Positions 8,749 to 42,990 of a stretch of DNA of 64,000 bases are shown here, piece by piece. This DNA is from Streptomyces sp. NBC_01198 (GTDB lineage: Bacteria; Actinomycetota; Actinomycetes; Streptomycetales; Streptomycetaceae): NCBI RefSeq assembly GCF_036010485.1, contig NZ_CP108568.1, positions 6,100,501 to 6,164,500 of the forward strand. The letters run 5' to 3'. The notes beneath the pieces were generated by a model. It was not told the origin of the DNA. It was given only the letters and a program-made list of their open reading frames with translations, and did not search any database. Position 1 is the stretch's first letter; every line of letters starts with the position of its first letter. The translations under genes and the position numbers were made by a program.

Positions 8749-8804
8749 TTGACCGTGGGGCATGGTGGAGTAAAGTGGCGCGAAGTGGTGCGTGAAAAGT
8801 GGCG
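8749..8804 (+). promoter_or_regulatory. mraZ/dcw promoter with MraZ-box-like repeats
   Basis: TTGACC at 8749-8754 and TAAAGT at 8771-8776 with a 16-nt spacer make a good sigma-70-type promoter. Overlapping it, GTGGNG occurs at 8755, 8765, 8775 and 8785, exactly 10 bp apart, with a fifth copy at 8799. MraZ proteins bind short direct repeats at about 10-bp spacing in their own promoters, so autoregulation is the natural reading. The expected RNA start is near 8783, some 37 nt before mraZ. Confidence 0.7.
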
Positions 8805-8819: not shown

Positions 8820-9251
8820 ATGTTCCTCGGGACGTACACCCCGCGGCTGGACGACAAGCATCGCCTGGTGCTGCCCGCCCGCTTCCGCGAGCCCCTGGCC
8901 GAGGGGCTGGTGATCACCCGCGGGCAGGAGCGGTGCCTGTGCGTCTGGCCGGTCGACGGCTTCAAGGCGGCCACCGAGCAGCTGTCCGCGGCACCGCTGA
9001 CCTCGAAGTCCGCCCGTGACTACCTGCGGGTGCTGTTCGCCGGCGCGCACGACGAGATCCCCGACCGGCAGGGCCGGGTGACCGTCCCGCAGCCGCTGCG
9101 GGAGTACGCGGGTCTGGTCCGCGACTGCGCGGTGATCGGTGCCAACAGCCGGGTGGAGATCTGGTCGGCGACCGCCTGGGCCGATTATCTGGCGGCGCAG
9201 GAGGACACGTTTTCGGCCCTGTCGAAGGAGGTTCCGCCCGGATTACTGTGA
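8820..9251 (+). CDS. mraZ: Transcriptional regulator MraZ
   Basis: 143 residues with two SpoVT/AbrB-like MraZ repeats: [20 protein letters not shown] at the start and [17 protein letters not shown] near the middle, each with the DxxxR signature. MraZ forms a ring-shaped oligomer that binds repeats upstream of its own gene and controls the dcw cluster. A GGAGGTG ribosome site at 8811-8817 fixes ATG 8820. The next-to-last sense codon is TTA (9243-9245), the rarest leucine codon in streptomycetes and read only by the bldA tRNA. It is the only in-frame TTA I found in a confident gene of this window. rsmH follows after 212 nt. Confidence 0.95.
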
Positions 9252-9463
9252 GCGCGGCCCCGCACCCGCGTGCTCGTCCCGAGAAATCACCCGCGCGGAC
9301 GTACGGCTCGGCCTCCTCCCGCTCCACCGTTGCGCTGGCACCACTTCCCCGGTGCCAGGGGAACGTTTCTGCCGAGCGGGCGGGGACCAGGTTCTACGTC
9401 CACCCGTCGGCCGCCACCCCCGGGCCGGCCGCGCGCCAGCACCGTCCGAGAAGGGCCGGCCCC

Positions 9464-10441
9464 ATGAGCGACACCTCCCCGCAGCCACCGGAGCCACGGC
9501 ACGTCCCGGTGATGCTGCGGCGCTGCCTCGACCTGCTGGGGCCCGCGCTGGCTGCACCCGGCGCCGTCGTCGTGGACGCCACGCTGGGCCTCGGCGGGCA
9601 CAGCGAGGCGCTGCTGAGCACCTTCCCCGCCGTCCGGCTGATCGCGCTGGACCGCGACCCCGAGGCGCTCAAGCTCTCGGGCCGGCGGCTGGCCCGCTTC
9701 GGCGACCGGGCCACCCTGGTGCACGCGGTCTACGACGAGCTGCCTGACGTCCTGGCCGGGCTGTCGGTGCCGCGCGTGCAGGGCGTGCTCTTCGACCTCG
9801 GCGTGTCGTCCATGCAGCTCGACGAGGCCGACCGCGGCTTCGCCTACGCGCAGGACGCCCCGCTGGACATGCGGATGGACCAGACCACCGGGATCAGCGC
9901 CGCCGAGGTGCTCAACACCTACCCGCCGGGCGACCTGGTCCGCATCCTGCGCAGCTACGGCGAGGAGAAGTTCGCCCGCAAGATCGTGGACGCGGTGGTG
10001 CGGCAGCGGGACGCCGAGCCGTTCGGCAACAGCGCCAGGCTGGTCGAACTGATCAGGGACGCGCTGCCGCAGGCCGCCAAGCGCACCGGCGGCAATCCGG
10101 CCAAGCGCACCTTCCAGGCGCTGCGGATCGAGGTCAACGGCGAGCTGACGGTGCTGGAGCGGGCCGTGCCCGCTGCGGTCGGCGCGCTCGCGGTGGGCGG
10201 CCGGATCGCGGTGCTCGCCTACCACTCGCTGGAGGACCGGCTGGTCAAGCAGGTCTTCGCGGCCGGCGCGGCGAACACCGCACCGCCGGGGCTGCCCGTG
10301 GTGCCCGAGCAGTACCAGCCGCGGTTGCGGCTGCTCACCCGTGGCGCGGAACTGCCCACCGAGGACGAGATCGCCGAGAACCGGCGGGCCGCGCCCGCCC
10401 GGCTGCGCGGCGCCGAGCGGATCCGCGAGGAGGCCAGGTGA
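9464..10441 (+). CDS. rsmH: 16S rRNA (cytosine-1402-N4)-methyltransferase
   Basis: 325 residues. [14 protein letters not shown] opens the conserved region, followed by the SAM loop [16 protein letters not shown] (about 36-51), then ALDRDPEA, then [19 protein letters not shown], and near the C-terminus [15 protein letters not shown]. The enzyme methylates N4 of C1402 in 16S rRNA at the ribosomal P site. The frame is open upstream to 9248, but the conserved region starts at ATG 9464. The gap after mraZ contains a small TGGCACC/GGTGCCA hairpin (9336-9357) and nothing else clear. The stop overlaps the ftsL start by 4 nt. Confidence 0.95.
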
Positions 10442-10839
10442 GCCCGGTCCGCGGCCGGGCCGGAACCGCGGCCCGTGCCCCGTTCGTCATCCTTGTCGTG
10501 ACACTGCTCGCCGGTGGCCTGATCTCGCTGCTGCTGCTCAACGCCGCGGTCAACCAGGACTCCTTCCAGCTGAACAAGCTGGAGAACGAGACCACGGGGT
10601 ACACGGACGAGCAGCAGCAACTGCAGCAGGAGGTCGACCAGTACGGGGCTCCGGCCACGCTGGAGCGCAAGGCCAGGCAGCTCGGCATGGTCCCCGGCGG
10701 CAACCCGGCCTTCCTCGGCCCCGGCGGTTCCGTGCTGGGCACGCCGGAACGGGCCACGGCCCCGCCGGCCCCGCCGAGGCCCCCCGCGTCCGCACCTCCG
10801 GGGACGCCCCCGGCCCCACCGACGACTCCTGGCAGGTGA
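10438..10839 (+). CDS. ftsL: Cell division protein FtsL-like (septum formation initiator)
   Basis: 133 residues. A short basic N-terminus, one membrane helix (about 15-37, [20 protein letters not shown]), then a heptad-like coiled coil with [19 protein letters not shown] and [20 protein letters not shown] Pro/Ala-rich tail ends the protein. FtsL with DivIC and FtsQ links the early Z-ring to septal wall synthesis. GTG 10438 overlaps the rsmH stop (GTGA), implying coupling. Identity rests on topology and location, since FtsL sequences are weakly conserved. Confidence 0.85.
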
Positions 10840-10948: not shown

Positions 10949-12949
10949 GTGAGCGCGCCCCGGCCGCCGGCCGGCGGGCGCCGGCCGGGGCCAGGGCCCC
11001 GGCCGAGGCCCGCGGTGCGGGCGGGGGCGCCGCAGGGCGGCAGGCGGCGCCCCGTACCGCCACCGCGGCGGCCGCGGCCGCCGCGGGTGGTCAGGCTCGG
11101 CCGGCCCCGCCCGCGGCTCCGCCTGGTGGCGGTGGCGCTCACGCTGGTGATGGGCGTGTTCGTGGTGCGCCTGCTCCAGGTGCAGGCGGTCGACGCGTCG
11201 GCGTACGCGTCGAAGGCCGCGGTGAACCGCTGGGTCACCCACGACGTGACCGCGGACCGCGGCACGATCACCGACCGCTCGGGCGTGGCGCTGGCCGCCA
11301 CCGTGGACGCGTACGACATCACCGCTGACCCGTATCTGTTCACCCCCGAGCAGGCGAAGGTCAAGGACGCCCCGGCGCAGGCGGCGGAGCTGCTCGCGCC
11401 GATCGTCGGCGGCGACCCGACGACGATCGCCCGGCAGCTGTCCACCCCGGGCTCGCGCTACCAGCTGCTGGCCCGGCAGCAGTCCCCGCAGGCCTGGAAC
11501 CAGATCTCCGACCTGAAGAAGGCGCTCGCCGCCAAGGCGGTGAACCATCCCGGCGCCGACGTGCTGGCCGGGGTGTTCAGCGAGCCGCACACCAAGCGGG
11601 TCTACCCCGGCGGCGACCTCGCCGCCGGAGTGCTCGGCTTCGTCAACGGCAAGGGCAGCGGCGGCGGCGGCCTGGAGACGATGCTGGACAAGCAGCTGGC
11701 CGGCCGGAACGGCAAGATCCGCTACGCCCAGTCCAACGGCCGCCAGGTCCCCACCGCCGGCGTCCAGGAGCAGCCCGCGGTGCCCGGTTCTGACGTGGAG
11801 CTGACCTTGGACCGGGACATCCAGTGGGCGGCGCAGAGCGCGATCAGCGCCCAGGTGACCAAGTCCAGGGCCGACCGCGGCTACGTCACCGTGATGGACA
11901 ACAGGACCGGCCAGGTGCTGGCGATGGCCGACGCCCCCGGCTTCGACCCGGGCGACCTGACGCACGCCGACCCCGAGGCGCTCGGCAACGCCGCGATGCA
12001 GGACGCGTACGAGCCGGGCAGCGTCAGCAAGCTGATGTCGATGGCCGCGATCATCGACACCGGCACCGCGACGCCCACCACCCACGTCGTCGTGCCCGGC
12101 ACCCTGCCGCGCGCGGACCGGGTCTTCCACGACGACGTCGACCACGGCACCTGGTATCTGACGCTGAACGGGGTGCTCGCCAAGTCCAGCAACATCGGCA
12201 CGATCGAGGCCAGCGGGCGGCTCGGCAAGACCCAGCCGGAGGCCAACCGGGTGCTGTACTCGTACCTGAAGAAGTTCGGCCTCGGCGAGCCCAGCGGCGT
12301 CGGCTTCCCCGGCGAGACCCCCGGCATCCTGGCCAAGCCGCAGGACTGGAACGCCTCGCAGCAGTACACGATCCCGTTCGGCCAGGGCCTGTCGCTGAAC
12401 GCGCTGCAGGCCACCTCGGTCTACGCGACCATCGCCAACGGCGGCGTCCGGGTCGAGCCGAGCCTGATCCGCGGCATCACCGGACCCGACGGGCGCTTCG
12501 TGCCGGCCGCGCCGCCGAAGAAGACCCGGGTGGTCAGCACGCAGACCGCCAGGACGCTCTCCACCATGCTGGAGTCGGTCGTCGGCAGCGAGCAGGGCAC
12601 CGGCGTCAACGCCCGGATCGACGGCTACCGGGTCGCCGGCAAGACCGGTACGGCCAACCGGGTGGACCCGAAAACCGGCACGTACAAGGGCTACACCGCG
12701 TCCTTCATGGGCTTCGCGCCGGCCGACGACCCGCGGGTCACCGTCTCCTGCGTCATCCAGAACCCGACGAAGGGCAGCTACTTCGGCGGCTCGATCTGCG
12801 GCCCGGTCTTCAAACAGGTGATGGAATTCGCCCTCAAGACGCTCCAGGTGCCGCCGTCCGGCGTCCCCGCGCCGAAGCTGCCGATCACCTTCGACCCGGC
12901 GGACGCGGTGGCCCCCGCGACCCAGCCGACCGGCGCCAGGGCGCGGTGA
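10949..12949 (+). CDS. ftsI: Penicillin-binding protein, FtsI/PBP3 class (septal transpeptidase)
   Basis: 666 residues. A long Pro/Arg-rich cytoplasmic start precedes one membrane anchor (about 57-78). The dimerisation domain begins near TADRGTITDRSGVALAA. The transpeptidase domain has all three motifs: SxxK as Ser358-V-S-Lys361, SxN as Ser413-S-Asn415, and Lys565-T-Gly567. No PASTA repeats are seen. With FtsW it cross-links septal peptidoglycan. GGAGGTG at 10938-10944 supports GTG 10949. The gap of 109 nt after ftsL shows no clear promoter. Its stop at 12947-12949 lies close to two alternative murE starts. Confidence 0.94.
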   Translation: MSAPRPPAGGRRPGPGPRPRPAVRAGAPQGGRRRPVPPPRRPRPPRVVRLGRPRPRLRLVAVALTLVMGVFVVRLLQVQAVDASAYASKAAVNRWVTHDVTADRGTITDRSGVALAATVDAYDITADPYLFTPEQAKVKDAPAQAAELLAPIVGGDPTTIARQLSTPGSRYQLLARQQSPQAWNQISDLKKALAAKAVNHPGADVLAGVFSEPHTKRVYPGGDLAAGVLGFVNGKGSGGGGLETMLDKQLAGRNGKIRYAQSNGRQVPTAGVQEQPAVPGSDVELTLDRDIQWAAQSAISAQVTKSRADRGYVTVMDNRTGQVLAMADAPGFDPGDLTHADPEALGNAAMQDAYEPGSVSKLMSMAAIIDTGTATPTTHVVVPGTLPRADRVFHDDVDHGTWYLTLNGVLAKSSNIGTIEASGRLGKTQPEANRVLYSYLKKFGLGEPSGVGFPGETPGILAKPQDWNASQQYTIPFGQGLSLNALQATSVYATIANGGVRVEPSLIRGITGPDGRFVPAAPPKKTRVVSTQTARTLSTMLESVVGSEQGTGVNARIDGYRVAGKTGTANRVDPKTGTYKGYTASFMGFAPADDPRVTVSCVIQNPTKGSYFGGSICGPVFKQVMEFALKTLQVPPSGVPAPKLPITFDPADAVAPATQPTGARAR

Positions 12950-13069: not shown

Positions 13070-14625
13070 TGCCCAACCCTGATCAAGCCACCCTCACCCA
13101 GCCGGGCCCGCCGCGCCCGACACGGGTCCGGCCGAAACCGCTGGCGGACCTCGCCCGGCGGCTCGGCATCCCGGACCCCGGCGGTGACGCCGCTGTCACC
13201 GGCATCACCCACGACTCGCGCGCGGTCCGCCCGGGCGACCTCTACACCGCCTTGCCCGGCGCCCGTTTCCACGGCGCCGACTTCGCGGCCCAGGCGGCCG
13301 CCGCGGGAGCCGCGGCCGTGCTCACCGATCCGGCGGGCGCCGAGCGGGCCGCCGCGACCGGCCTGCCGGTGCTGACCGTCGCCGACCCCAGATCGGAGAT
13401 GGGCGCGCTGGCCGCGGCCGTCTACGACGGGCCCGGCGAGGCGCTGCTGAAGATCGGCATCACCGGGACCTCCGGTAAGACCACGACCGCGTATCTGGTC
13501 GAGGGCGGGCTGCGGGCCGCCACCGGCGGCGGTACGGGCCTGGTCGGCACGGTCGAGACCCGGATCGGCGACGAGCGCATCAAGAGCGAGCGCACCACGC
13601 CGGAGGCCACCGACCTGCAGGCGCTGTTCGCGGTGATGCGCGAGCGCGGTGTCGGCTCGCTCGTCATGGAGGTCTCCAGCCACGCCCTGGTGCTCGGCCG
13701 GGTCGACGGCGCCGTCTTCGACGTGGCCGTCTTCACCAACCTCAGCCCGGAGCACATGGAGTTCCACTCCGGCATGGAGGACTACTTCCAGGCCAAGGCG
13801 CAGCTGTTCACCCCGCGGCGCAGCCGGCTCGGCGTGGTGAACCTGGACGACGAGTACGGCCGCCGGCTGGTCGCCGAGGCCACCGTGCCGCTGGTGACCT
13901 TCTCGGCGCAGGGCCGGCTGGACGCCGACTGGCGGGCCGAGGACGTCGAGGCCGACCTGGCGGGCAGCACCTTCACGGTGATCGGCCCCAAGGGCGAGCG
14001 GCTGGCGGCCACCGCGCCGCTGCCCGGCCCCTTCAACGTCGCGAACACCCTCGCCGCCGTCACCGCGCTGGCCGCCGCCGGCCTGGACCCGCAGAGCGCC
14101 GCCGAGGGCGTCGCCGCCGTCCCCGGGGTGCCGGGCCGGCTGGAGCGGGTCGACGCCGGGCAGCCGTATCTCGCCGTGGTGGACTACGCGCACAAGACCG
14201 ACGCCGTGGAGTCCGTGCTGCGGGCGCTGCGCAAGACCACCCGCGGCCGGATCCACGCCGTGCTGGGCTGCGGCGGCGACCGCGACACCACCAAGCGCGG
14301 CCCGATGGGCGCCGCGCTGGCCAGGCTGGCCGACACCGCCGTCCTGACGTCGGACAACCCGCGTTCCGAGGACCCGCTGGCGATCCTCGCCACGATGCTG
14401 GCAGGGGCCTCCGAGGTGCCCGCCGAGCAGCGCGCCCGGGTCGTCGTCGAACCCGACAGGGCCGCCGCGGTGGCCGCCGCCGTCGCCGCGGCCGAGCCCG
14501 GCGACATCGTGCTGGTGGCGGGCAAGGGCCACGAGCAGGGCCAGGACATCGCCGGAGAGGTGCGCCCCTTCGACGACCGAGAGGTGCTGCGCGCCGCGAT
14601 CGAGAAGGACCGGAAAGCATCGTGA
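13069..14625 (+). CDS. murE: UDP-MurNAc-dipeptide:diaminopimelate ligase
   Basis: 518 residues from GTG 13069. The ATP loop is GITGTSGKTTTAY (about 130-142). VMEVSSHAL and VFTNLSPEHMEFH follow, and near the C-terminus GCGGDRDTTKRGPMG and the DNPRSEDP motif typical of enzymes adding diaminopimelate (LL-DAP in streptomycetes). It acts in the cytoplasm before MurF. The frame is open upstream, and GTG 12946 (overlapping the PBP stop) or ATG 12952 would add about 40 low-complexity residues. I prefer 13069 because the added stretch looks non-conserved and a -10-like TAACCT sits just upstream. The stop overlaps murF (GTGA). Confidence 0.92.
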   Translation: MPNPDQATLTQPGPPRPTRVRPKPLADLARRLGIPDPGGDAAVTGITHDSRAVRPGDLYTALPGARFHGADFAAQAAAAGAAAVLTDPAGAERAAATGLPVLTVADPRSEMGALAAAVYDGPGEALLKIGITGTSGKTTTAYLVEGGLRAATGGGTGLVGTVETRIGDERIKSERTTPEATDLQALFAVMRERGVGSLVMEVSSHALVLGRVDGAVFDVAVFTNLSPEHMEFHSGMEDYFQAKAQLFTPRRSRLGVVNLDDEYGRRLVAEATVPLVTFSAQGRLDADWRAEDVEADLAGSTFTVIGPKGERLAATAPLPGPFNVANTLAAVTALAAAGLDPQSAAEGVAAVPGVPGRLERVDAGQPYLAVVDYAHKTDAVESVLRALRKTTRGRIHAVLGCGGDRDTTKRGPMGAALARLADTAVLTSDNPRSEDPLAILATMLAGASEVPAEQRARVVVEPDRAAAVAAAVAAAEPGDIVLVAGKGHEQGQDIAGEVRPFDDREVLRAAIEKDRKAS

Positions 14626-38453: not shown

Positions 38454-39146
38454 TCAGGCGCTGACCTGGACGGGCGGACCACGGCGTACGACGGCATGGT
38501 GCAGCCGGTGGGCGCCCGGCCTCGAGACCCGGTCGCGGGTGGCGGGGCGGGTGCGGGGCGGCACCGCGGTGAGCACGCTGCGGATGGCGGCAGCGGCGAA
38601 CAGCAGCGGGCGGAAGGCGGCCAGCGCCACCGACCGTACGGCCAGGTGCAGGGCGGCCTCGCCGCGCCGCAGCCACCAGGCGGCCAGCAGGCCCACGGAC
38701 ACGTGCACGGCAAGCAGCAGCCACGGCAGGGCGCTGGACGGCAGCCGGGCGGCCGCGTCGGCGCCTCCCGGCACTGCGGCGAGCGGGGTGTCGGGAGCGG
38801 GGCCGACGTGTCCGTTGTGGCACAGGAAGGCCTCGTTGAACGACCGCCACGGACCGGTCACCGGGCCGCCGAAAGCGCCGTAACAGGCCTGCTGGCCGGT
38901 GGTCAGGAGGGTGTCGACGGCAAGTTCAAGCGGCACCATCAGGCCGGCCAGCGTCCAGAAGCCGGCCTCCGGGCGGGCGGTGGCCAGATACACCAGCGCG
39001 AAGACCGCGGCGAAGGCCCCGGCCACCGCGGGCAGCGGCAGCGGGGCCTTGGCCATCAGGACGTGCGAGGTCGAGGAGAGCGTGACGCACAACGCGGCGA
39101 AGAGGGCGGCACGCAGTGCCCTCAGCCGCGGTCGTATCGCCTCCAT
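38454..39146 (-). CDS. Predicted integral membrane protein
   Basis: 230 residues from ATG 39146. Five hydrophobic stretches lie near 12-32, 38-58, 64-84, 142-165 and 172-195, with a loop holding CYGAFGGPVTGPWRSFNEAF and a further Cys. I do not recognise the family. The C-terminus is basic, with TRPATRDRVSRPGAHRLHH. The frame is open further upstream in non-conserved sequence, so the start is a best guess. It lies 55 nt upstream of the DsbA-like gene on the same strand, which suggests a joint role with exported proteins, but that is inference. Confidence 0.6.
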   Translation of the reverse strand: MEAIRPRLRALRAALFAALCVTLSSTSHVLMAKAPLPLPAVAGAFAAVFALVYLATARPEAGFWTLAGLMVPLELAVDTLLTTGQQACYGAFGGPVTGPWRSFNEAFLCHNGHVGPAPDTPLAAVPGGADAAARLPSSALPWLLLAVHVSVGLLAAWWLRRGEAALHLAVRSVALAAFRPLLFAAAAIRSVLTAVPPRTRPATRDRVSRPGAHRLHHAVVRRGPPVQVSA

Positions 39147-39435
39147 GGCGACAGAGTGTGCCACGCGTACCTGTATGTGTGACCTAAGAGTGGATAACGG
39201 ATGTGGTACACGAGGCGGCGGGGACCGCTTACAGGCCCGGAATCCGGCCGTTGCGGAACAGGTCCACGAAGATCCGGTGGTCGGAGCGGACCCGGTCGCC
39301 GTAGGAGTGGGCGAACCGCTCGCCGCCCGCTCGCCGCCGGGTTGCGACCCGCGGTGTCGTACCCGGGTCGTAGACTTCCCGACGCCGCCAGACAACCCGT
39401 TCCGATGGCCCGTTCTCGCCGGAGGTGTCGCCGCC

Positions 39436-42400
39436 TTGACCGATCAGCCCTTCACTCACCTGCACGTCCACACCCAGTATTCGCTGCTGGACGGAGCCGC
39501 GAGACTGAAGGACATGTTCAAGGCGTGCAACGAGATGGGGATGAGCCATGTGGCCATCACCGATCACGGCAATCTGCACGGCGCCTACGACTTCTTCCAC
39601 CAGGCCGAGGCCGCCGGAGTGACCCCGGTGATGGGCATCGAGGCGTATCTGGCCCCCGAGTCGCGGCGGTACAACAAGCCGGTCAAGTGGGGCGCCCCGC
39701 ACCAGAAGGGCGACGACGTGTCCGGCGCGGGCGCGTATACGCACATGACCATCTGGGCCCGTGACCAGGTCGGCCTGCACAACCTGTTCCGTGCCCAGTC
39801 GCGCGCGTCCTTCGAGGGCTACTTCCGCAAGCCCCGGATGGACCGCGAACTGCTCAGCGAGTACGCCGAGGGCCTGATGGGCACCACCGGCTGCCCCTCG
39901 GGCGAGGTCTCCACCCGGATCAGGCTGGGACAGATGGACGAGGCGATCAAGGCCGCGTCCGACTACCAGGACATCTTCGGCAAGGAGAACTTCTTCGTCG
40001 AGATCATGGACCACGGCATCGACATCGACCGCAGGGCCAGGGACGGCCTGATGGAGATCTCGAAGAAGCTCAAGGCGCCGTTCGTGGTCACCAACGACTC
40101 GCACTACACCTACGCGGGGGAGTCGTCCGCGCACGACACCCTGCTGTGCATCCAGACCGGCTCCAACATGTCGGACCCGGGCCGCTTCAAGTTCGACGGC
40201 TCCGGGTACTACCTCAAGTCCGCCGCCGAGATGTACGCGATCGACTCCTCCGACGCCTGGCAGGAGGGCTGCCGCAACAGCCAGCTGCTGATCGCCGACC
40301 GGGTCGACACCAAGGGCATGTTCCAGTTCAGGAACCTGATGCCGAAGTTCGACGTGCCCGACGGCTACTCCGAGGTCACCTGGTTCCGCGAGGAGGTCGC
40401 CCGCGGCATGGGCCGCCGCTTCCCCGGCGGCATCCCCGAGGACCGGCAGAAGCTCGCCGACTACGAGATGGACACCATCGTCCAGATGGGCTTTCCCGGG
40501 TACTTCCTGGTGGTCGCCGACTTCATCATGTGGGCGAAGAACAACGGCATCGCGGTCGGCCCTGGCCGCGGCTCCGCGGCCGGCTCGATCGTCGCCTACG
40601 CGATGGGCATCACCGACCTCGACCCGGTCCCGCACGGGCTGATCTTCGAGCGGTTCCTGAACCCCGAGCGCGTGTCCATGCCCGATGTCGACATCGACTT
40701 CGACGAGCGCAGGCGCGGCGAGGTCATCCGGTACGTGACCGAGAAGTACGGCTCGGACAAGGTCGCGCAGATCGCCACCTACGGCACCATCAAGGCCAAG
40801 GCCGCGATCAAGGACTCGGCCCGCGTGCTGGGGTATCCGTTCTCGATGGGCGACCGGATCACCAAGGCGATGCCCGCCGACGTCCTGGGCAAGGGCATCC
40901 CGCTGTCCGGGATCACCGACAAGGACCACCCCCGCTACAGCGAGGCGGGCGAGGTCCGGGCGATGTACGAGAACGAGCCGGACGTCACCAAGGTGATCGA
41001 CTCGGCCAAGGGCATCGAGGGCCTGGTCCGGCAGATGGGCGTGCACGCCGCCGGTGTGATCATGTCCGCCGAGCCGCTGATCGACCACGTGCCGATCTTC
41101 TCGCCGAAGAACGACGGCGCCGTCGTGACGCAGTGGGACTACCCGAGCTGCGAGTCGCTCGGCCTGCTCAAGATGGACTTCCTCGGCCTGCGCAACCTGA
41201 CGATCATGGATGACGCGGTCAAGTCGATCAAGGCCAACAAGGGCATCGACATCGACCTGCTCGCGCTGCCGCTGGACGACCCCGACACCTACGCCCTGCT
41301 GGGCCGCGGCGACACCCTGGGCGTCTTCCAGTTCGACGGCGGGCCCATGCGCGCCCTGCTGCGGATGATGAAGCCCGACAACTTCGAGGACATCTCCGCC
41401 GTCTCGGCCCTCTACCGGCCGGGCCCGATGGGCATGAACTCGCACATCAACTACGCCCTGCGCAAGAACAAGCAGCAGGAGATCACCCCGATCCACAAGG
41501 AGCTGGAAGAGCCGCTCCGCGAGGTGCTCGAAGTCACCTACGGCCTGATCGTCTACCAGGAGCAGGTGCAGAAGGCCGCCCAGGTGCTGGCCGGGTACTC
41601 GCTGGGCCAGGCCGACCTGCTGCGCCGGGCGATGGGCAAGAAGAAGAAAGAGGTCCTGGACAAGGAGTTCATCCCCTTCCAGGCCGGCATGCGCGAGCGC
41701 GGCTACTCCGACCAGGCCATCCAGGCGGTCTGGGACGTGCTGGTGCCCTTCGCGGGATACGCCTTCAACAAGGCGCACTCCGCCGCGTACGGCCTGGTGT
41801 CGTACTGGACGGCCTACCTCAAGGCGAACTACCCGGCCGAGTACATGGCGGGTCTGCTGACGTCGGTGAAGGACGACAAGGACAAGATGGCGCTCTATCT
41901 CAACGAGTGCCGCCGGATGGGCATCAAGGTGCTGCCCCCGGACGTGAACGAGTCCAACGCCAACTTCACCCCGCGCGGCGACGACACGATCGTCTTCGGC
42001 CTCACCGCGGTCCGCAACGTCGGGCAGAACGTGGTGGACTCCGTCGTCAGGTGCCGCAAGTCCAAGGGCCGTTACGCGAACTTCCCGGACTTCCTGGACA
42101 AGGTCGAGGTCGTGGTCTGCAACAAGCGGACCGTCGAGTCGCTGATCAAGGCGGGCGCCTTCGACACCATGCAGCACACCAGGCGCGGCCTGACCGAGCA
42201 CTTCGAGACGATGATCGACAACGTGGTGCAGGTCAAGCGCAAGGAGGCCGAGGGGCAGTTCGACCTCTTCGGCGGCATGGGCGAGGCCGACGCGGACGAC
42301 GGGCCCGCCTTCGGCATGGACGTGGTCTTCTCCGACATCGAGTGGGACAAGACCTATCTGCTCGCCCAGGAGCGCGAGATGCTCGGGCTGTACGTCTCCG

Positions 42401-42990
42401 ACCACCCGCTGTTCGGCATCGAGCACATCCTCGGCGACAAGACCGACGCCGCCATCGCCGCCCTGGCCGGCGACTACCAGGACGGTGCGATCGTCACCAT
42501 CGGCGGCATCATCTCCGGGCTGCAGCGCAAGATGACCAAGCAGGGCAACGCCTGGGCCATCGCCACCGTCGAGGATCTGGCCGGCTCGGTCGACTGCATG
42601 TTCTTCCCCGCGACCTACCAGCTGGTGTCCACCCAGCTGATGGAGGACGCGGTGGTCTTCGTCAAGGGACGGCTGGACAAGCGCGAGGACATCCCGCGGC
42701 TGGTCGCCATGGAGTTGATGGTCCCCGACCTGACCGACGTCGGCACCAACGCGCCGGTGAGCATCTCCATCCCGACCGTCAAGGTCACCCCGCCGCTGGT
42801 GGCCAGGCTCGGCGAGGTGCTGGCCAGCCACAAGGGCAACACCGAGGTAAGGGTGCGGCTGCAGGGCGCCAGGTCCACCACGGTGCTGCGCCTCGACCGG
42901 CACCGGGTGAGCGCTGATCCCTCGCTGTTCGGCGACCTCAAGGCGCTGCTGGGCCCGGCCTGCCTGGGCGCGGGCCAGCAGGCGGGCTGA
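39436..42990 (+). CDS. dnaE: DNA polymerase III alpha subunit
   Basis: 1184 residues. The N-terminal PHP domain has HLHVHTQYSLLDGAARL and AITDHGNLHGAY with its metal-binding histidines intact. The polymerase core carries Asp417 and Asp419 in MPDVDIDFDERR and Asp581 in KMDFLGLRNL. The C-terminal OB-fold is in VTIGGIISGLQRKMTKQGN. It is the replicative DNA polymerase, with proofreading likely by PHP. The frame is open far upstream, but TTG 39436 is chosen: GGAGGTG (39421-39427) lies 8 nt before it and conserved sequence (TDQPFTHLHVHTQYSLL) begins there. Confidence 0.96.
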   Translation: MTDQPFTHLHVHTQYSLLDGAARLKDMFKACNEMGMSHVAITDHGNLHGAYDFFHQAEAAGVTPVMGIEAYLAPESRRYNKPVKWGAPHQKGDDVSGAGAYTHMTIWARDQVGLHNLFRAQSRASFEGYFRKPRMDRELLSEYAEGLMGTTGCPSGEVSTRIRLGQMDEAIKAASDYQDIFGKENFFVEIMDHGIDIDRRARDGLMEISKKLKAPFVVTNDSHYTYAGESSAHDTLLCIQTGSNMSDPGRFKFDGSGYYLKSAAEMYAIDSSDAWQEGCRNSQLLIADRVDTKGMFQFRNLMPKFDVPDGYSEVTWFREEVARGMGRRFPGGIPEDRQKLADYEMDTIVQMGFPGYFLVVADFIMWAKNNGIAVGPGRGSAAGSIVAYAMGITDLDPVPHGLIFERFLNPERVSMPDVDIDFDERRRGEVIRYVTEKYGSDKVAQIATYGTIKAKAAIKDSARVLGYPFSMGDRITKAMPADVLGKGIPLSGITDKDHPRYSEAGEVRAMYENEPDVTKVIDSAKGIEGLVRQMGVHAAGVIMSAEPLIDHVPIFSPKNDGAVVTQWDYPSCESLGLLKMDFLGLRNLTIMDDAVKSIKANKGIDIDLLALPLDDPDTYALLGRGDTLGVFQFDGGPMRALLRMMKPDNFEDISAVSALYRPGPMGMNSHINYALRKNKQQEITPIHKELEEPLREVLEVTYGLIVYQEQVQKAAQVLAGYSLGQADLLRRAMGKKKKEVLDKEFIPFQAGMRERGYSDQAIQAVWDVLVPFAGYAFNKAHSAAYGLVSYWTAYLKANYPAEYMAGLLTSVKDDKDKMALYLNECRRMGIKVLPPDVNESNANFTPRGDDTIVFGLTAVRNVGQNVVDSVVRCRKSKGRYANFPDFLDKVEVVVCNKRTVESLIKAGAFDTMQHTRRGLTEHFETMIDNVVQVKRKEAEGQFDLFGGMGEADADDGPAFGMDVVFSDIEWDKTYLLAQEREMLGLYVSDHPLFGIEHILGDKTDAAIAALAGDYQDGAIVTIGGIISGLQRKMTKQGNAWAIATVEDLAGSVDCMFFPATYQLVSTQLMEDAVVFVKGRLDKREDIPRLVAMELMVPDLTDVGTNAPVSISIPTVKVTPPLVARLGEVLASHKGNTEVRVRLQGARSTTVLRLDRHRVSADPSLFGDLKALLGPACLGAGQQAG

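Follow-up and report, generated by a model that had tools for sequence, protein, structure and literature searches.

A rare TTA codon kept near the end of mraZ in Actinacidiphila-like genomes may be held by a promoter element over the stop codon

The division gene regulator mraZ of a streptomycete carries a TTA codon directly before its last sense codon, and the question raised by this locus is what keeps so rare a codon at such a place. The original prediction, made from the letters of the window (the whole stretch of 64,000 nucleotides analysed, to which all coordinates refer unless a locus is named, plus strand unless stated otherwise), had proposed that reading of the codon by the late-maturing bldA tRNA could tie the level of MraZ to development. 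The gene (8820–9251, its start codon likely being the ATG at 8820) encodes 143 amino acids with two MraZ domains and was identified by TIGR00242 at 121.1 bits and by two matches to Pfam MraZ at 62.2 and 61.4 bits. Its 3' end reads in frame GGA (9240–9242), TTA (9243–9245), CTG (9246–9248), and TGA (9249–9251), which confirms TTA as the second last sense codon. The window belongs to a single-contig genome of 7.9 Mb. Among named organisms Actinacidiphila paucisporea has the closest MraZ (95% identity), and by its nearest named relatives the genome is Actinacidiphila-like, this being a genus separate from Streptomyces in the same family.

The rarity claimed for the codon was borne out by a sample of 286 crudely called genes, drawn from the window and 20 stretches of 20 kb elsewhere in its genome, in which TTA made up 18 of 111,054 codons (0.16 per thousand) and 17 genes had at least one. 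CTA and ATA occurred in this sample at 0.35 and 0.94 per thousand codons, respectively, and the only one of the 286 genes with any NTA codon at the second last sense position was mraZ itself. A further claim, that no other confident gene of the window has an in-frame TTA, held as far as tested, but among the 43 crudely called genes of the window two besides mraZ contain one. A TTA-bearing crude open reading frame at 13422–13775 lies on the minus strand, antisense to a long plus-strand frame read by eye as murE. The open frame of dnaE (38899–42990) has a TTA at codon 111 (39229–39231), which probably precedes the real start, as the dnaE family match begins only at residue 183.

MraZ was detected in 130 of 199 genomes searched, and the mraZ ends were read in 65 of these, comprising every one of the 54 family members and 11 of the 76 from farther away. 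A wider search of the family yielded an mraZ match in 55 of 394 genomes and no real mraZ beyond the 54, the extra match (G380) being a 38-residue partial with an E-value of 3.5e-4 which was not counted as mraZ. Loci L148–L177 duplicate genomes already counted, except for L168, L170, L174, and L176, and 80 named loci overlapping the genome set were tallied separately. The frame-broken mraZ of one genome (G018, loci L013 and L108) was kept out of codon counts and trees and retained in the count of operator boxes over 54 loci. This gene, which runs from position 1501 of its locus on, has one T too many in a run of Ts ahead of an intact site; the frameshift could be real or a sequencing error.

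Among the 53 in-frame mraZ genes of the family, 32 have TTA as second last sense codon, 10 have ATA, 4 CTA, 3 CTG, and 1 TTG, and 3 genes end earlier. All 32 TTA cases are confined to the genus of the window, where 32 of 34 in-frame genes carry this codon and the remaining two have one CTA and one ATA. The comparison of 3' ends across relatives, which had been suggested as a check, thus came out in favour of retention, and a patternless use of CTG or CTC, named beforehand as the outcome against it, was not what the 34 genes displayed. The 34 genes of the genus form, with 12 genomes of neighbouring genera, a clade of 46 genomes. In these neighbouring genera the codon is ATA, coding for isoleucine, in nine, CTA in three, and TTA in none of the 12, and NTA is found in 46 of 46 members of the clade (TTA 32, ATA 10, CTA 4). 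A tree built without the last 25 mraZ columns has the 46 NTA genomes on one side and the seven others (groups g2 and g5) on the other. Outside the clade NTA is absent from 7 of 7 family outgroups and from 11 of 11 farther genomes. The 80 named loci gave TTA in 14, ATA in 5, neither in 60, and a broken frame in 1.

Over the 46 rows the third base of the NTA codon shows no change and the first base at least five. For comparison, 93 columns whose most frequent residue is encoded by four or six codons have a median of 7 third-base changes, and in one other of them the third base does not change at all. Of 13 synonymously free columns lacking a third-base change, the NTA column alone ends in A or T; the other 12 have G or C as last base, in keeping with the preference of such GC-rich genes, which tend to avoid A at third positions. 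Since the third base is fixed while the first base varies and the amino acid differs, the unit being kept is the dinucleotide TA. As ATA and CTA occur in the neighbouring genera and TA alone is common to all 46, the constraint appears to act on the DNA letters and not on UUA. Judged from these alignments the retention of the codon is real and looks selected.

The most likely cause is, as far as the sequences can tell, an ordinary element in an unusual place. We think it rather probable that the kept TA belongs to the −10 element of a second promoter which overlaps the mraZ stop codon and would serve rsmH-ftsL-ftsI. The candidate element TACTGT (9244–9249) shares its TA with the TTA codon and its last T with the stop codon and conforms to the published motif TANNNT. 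Counting the T of TGA, this motif is present in 46 of 46 genes of the clade with CTG, GTG, TTG, CTC, CCG, or CCC as middle letters, and its final T comes free because all 46 genes stop with TGA. In a transcription start study of S. coelicolor (PMC4895711), 80.4% of 3,570 starts have TANNNT as their −10 motif, and the −35 motif is weaker, NTGACC being found at 58.6% of them. TANNNT is likewise given for S. lividans in a second report (PMC6742748). At the mraZ end a weak candidate −35 sequence, CTGTCG (9219–9224), was picked out by eye at a spacer of 19 bases; the Leu-Ser of the protein dictates most of it, and the same holds for its general form CTGTC[ACG]. The sigma-70 scan used requires a −35 element at 16–18 bases and made no call for TACTGT; it found no internal −35 at this spacing and called the upstream promoter P1 alone.

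Transcription by RNA polymerase carrying the housekeeping sigma factor would begin some seven bases past TACTGT, in a predicted start region at 9254–9258 which is placed by its distance to the −10 element. Given such a start, the transcript would cover the mraW leader RNA in full, followed by rsmH-ftsL-ftsI. The leader RNA (RF01746) was matched in full length at 9293–9409 with 47.7 bits (E 2.9e-8), 2.3 bits under the curated Rfam cut-off of 50. A scan of 20 related loci detected it at E ≤ 0.01 in 17 and over 50 bits in 2. Fourteen of the 16 NTA loci among them have the leader, in all 14 downstream of the NTA site, and it was not found at this threshold in the NTA loci L106 and L117. Its distance to the site varies among the loci scanned, the shortest gap being that of locus L107, where the leader begins at the 8th base past the mraZ stop. 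The leader is followed by rsmH (mraW), encoding a 16S rRNA methyltransferase (9464–10441; TIGR00006, 296.7 bits), by ftsL (10438–10839; NF053549, 100.9 bits), and by the gene of an ftsI-type penicillin-binding protein (10949–12949), which matched the SpoVD, PBP2, and FtsI models below their cut-offs and is assigned to ftsI by gene order. In a C. glutamicum transcriptome table the mraW RNA motif is marked as observed for cg2377 mraW (PMC3890552). An overlap with a start codon, the GTG inside CTGTGA being in frame with an extended rsmH reading frame at 9248–10441, was rejected because loci L107 (CTC TGA) and L127 (CCC TGA) are without this GTG yet keep NTA, and because the leader RNA occupies the gap between mraZ and rsmH.

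Ahead of mraZ the scan placed P1 (8749–8776), consisting of TTGACC (8749–8754), a spacer of 16 bases, and TAAAGT (8771–8776). P1 is overlapped by AGTGG repeats at 8774, 8784, and 8798 (8774–8802). Repeated boxes of this kind, the operator type of MraZ, are a probable MraZ operator here, judged by their pattern of occurrence and by earlier work on MraZ. By a raw pattern count, the double box A[AG]TGG-N5-A[AG]TGG is present at most 300 bases ahead of mraZ in 53 of the 54 mraZ-bearing family genomes (all but L127), and it occurs in none of the 16 mraZ-less loci examined. In L086, L112, L113, and L114 the 90 bases upstream of mraZ are strongly unlike those of the other members of the genus, and the double box lies farther upstream, within 300 bases, as if there were an insert between P1 and mraZ. 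Lying amid the probable boxes, P1 would be damped by MraZ, and expression of the division genes from the second promoter would escape its control. Transcription from the site, the sigma factor used, the binding of the boxes by MraZ, and the purpose of the arrangement are all points which we infer from the sequence.

Most of the family genomes searched are without mraZ, as 339 of the 394 gave no match and one more has the weak partial match. From these 340 mraZ-less genomes 16 loci were examined (20 upstream stretches minus 8 without an rsmH match, plus four loci). P1 stands there directly before rsmH with no mraZ between, and its core pattern is present in 14 of the 16 (not in L194 and L195) by a raw pattern count. 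Genomes lacking the regulator seem to let its operator decay. Group g9 of the mraZ-less genomes is probably Streptomyces proper. The rsmH protein tree is poorly resolved.

Several observations count against the promoter. Besides the weak −35, the final T supplied by TGA, and the two NTA loci in which no leader was detected, the genus also keeps the T of TTA, which TANNNT does not require, NTA lacks generality in the mraZ-rsmH arrangement, and an unpaired codon would suit an RNA explanation as well. A narrow literature search turned up no account of a promoter at the stop codon of mraZ. The letters might instead be held by a different DNA or RNA element in this place, such as the site of an unknown regulator, or a site of RNase cleavage in an open A/U-rich stretch separating mraZ from the rsmH leader; we regard this as unlikely. 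The raised A/T content in the genus extends over the last 16 codons, where A or T takes 29.8% of third positions in the 34 rows compared with 3.8–6.1% earlier, and is thus longer than a −10 element; over the 46 rows the free columns with at least 50% A/T number five, all within the last 16 of 149. The enrichment itself counts in favour of the promoter as well. The NTA is in addition predicted to be unpaired, its A having a mean RNA pairing of 0.09 in 46 sequences of 150 bases, and the lack of a −35 element in the sigma-70 scan points the same way. Outside the genus, however, the A/T-richness is mostly just NTA, often with GGA, which is short for most binding sites, and by eye no palindrome is kept throughout the aligned set. 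An inverted repeat TCACAG/CTGTGA noted by eye across the site in some rows was set aside, the TCA being present in only 16 of 46 rows and the mraZ of the window having TCG AAG there, and an RNA hairpin holding the TA was ruled out by the same pairing value of 0.09.

The reading from which the analysis started, that ribosomes are stalled at a UUA close to the mRNA end for as long as mature bldA tRNA is missing, so that full-length MraZ would appear late and division genes would run in step with development, is in our opinion improbable. Its premises stood: the codon is rare, it is kept in 32 of 34 genes of the genus, and the genome has a tRNA-Leu(taa), which we take to be of the bldA type. This tRNA was found by pattern search (locus L219, 1470–1554) and means that UUA could be limiting; the sole match of a first tRNA pattern was, as read by eye, not a UAA tRNA. 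The first-base T of TTA, moreover, changes little in the genus, with 2 changes over 34 rows, where 68 comparison columns have a median of 5 third-base changes, though no more than 2 in 16 of these columns. For adpA, control by bldA through its TTA is described in a review, where adpA is the only gene with a TTA in all streptomycetes analysed (PMC4255298). The same review states that TTA codons of streptomycetes lie preferentially at gene starts (PMC4255298), but that of mraZ stands at the very end. The proposed cause was not supported, as the genomes of other genera keep the A with ATA in nine and CTA in three; these are not UUA codons, and the sister genera would therefore not need the bldA tRNA at this site. 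One ATA and one CTA occur even within the genus itself. In the literature on TTA codons and bldA, mraZ was absent among the matches listed, and a search for Actinacidiphila together with bldA found nothing. Control by bldA is probably not the main cause; in Actinacidiphila it may act on top of the DNA signal, and it leaves the wider pattern unexplained.

A combination of both, in which the TA has two jobs, is a speculative scheme of low probability. The TA would be the −10 of an MraZ-independent promoter for rsmH-ftsL-ftsI and, in Actinacidiphila, part of a codon that makes completion of MraZ dependent on bldA; with little bldA tRNA there would be less repressor and the second promoter would keep the division genes on, and in lineages without mraZ P1 would have been joined directly to the rsmH leader and the MraZ boxes shed.

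Pausing at a rare codon of whatever tRNA is also quite doubtful. A rare UUA, AUA, or CUA before the stop would hold the ribosome, for example covering or shaping the rsmH leader RNA, and the low frequencies of TTA, CTA, and ATA (0.16, 0.35, and 0.94 per thousand) are in line with this, as is the clustering of uncommon GAA, TTT, TCA, GTT, and GGA codons in the last 16 codons in the genus. The 12 genomes of other genera, however, keep NTA without such a cluster, A or T taking 9.5% of third positions in columns 134–147 versus 100% at the NTA column, and the varying distance to the leader among the loci scanned also speaks against it. Finally, a codon merely inherited with too little time to change can hardly be the answer, for although the 46 genomes are all related, their codon states cluster on the rsmH tree, and one other four- or sixfold column is without a third-base change, the 93 such columns have a median of 7 third-base changes on the tree built without the last mraZ columns, five changes fall on the first base of the NTA codon itself, and an A in third position is disfavoured in GC-rich genes.

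With the −10 element over the stop codon as the preferred reading, a conserved TTA alone is not evidence for control by bldA, as a rare codon can be kept by a DNA signal that overlaps it. Should the internal promoter exist, a MraZ-controlled and a MraZ-independent promoter would both feed the division genes of these streptomycetes, a concrete setting for the question of why this widespread regulator is missing from most of the family.

Compared with bldA-controlled genes such as adpA, mraZ is alike in being a regulator gene with a TTA retained throughout the genus, and it differs by the position of the codon at the gene end and by the ATA or CTA of the sister genera. Division-cluster promoters autoregulated by MraZ are known, and P1 with its repeated AGTGG boxes before mraZ resembles them; here, however, a second candidate promoter follows mraZ, at which no AGTGG boxes were noted by eye. 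The mraW RNA motif (RF01746) is found here too as a leader between mraZ and rsmH, with a score in the window slightly below the Rfam cut-off. To the −10/−35 promoters of Streptomyces (TANNNT with NTGACC or TGAC) the site is related by a TANNNT in 46 of 46 genes ahead of the rsmH leader, but it has a weak −35 and a predicted start, and its −10 would lie over the stop codon between mraZ and rsmH.
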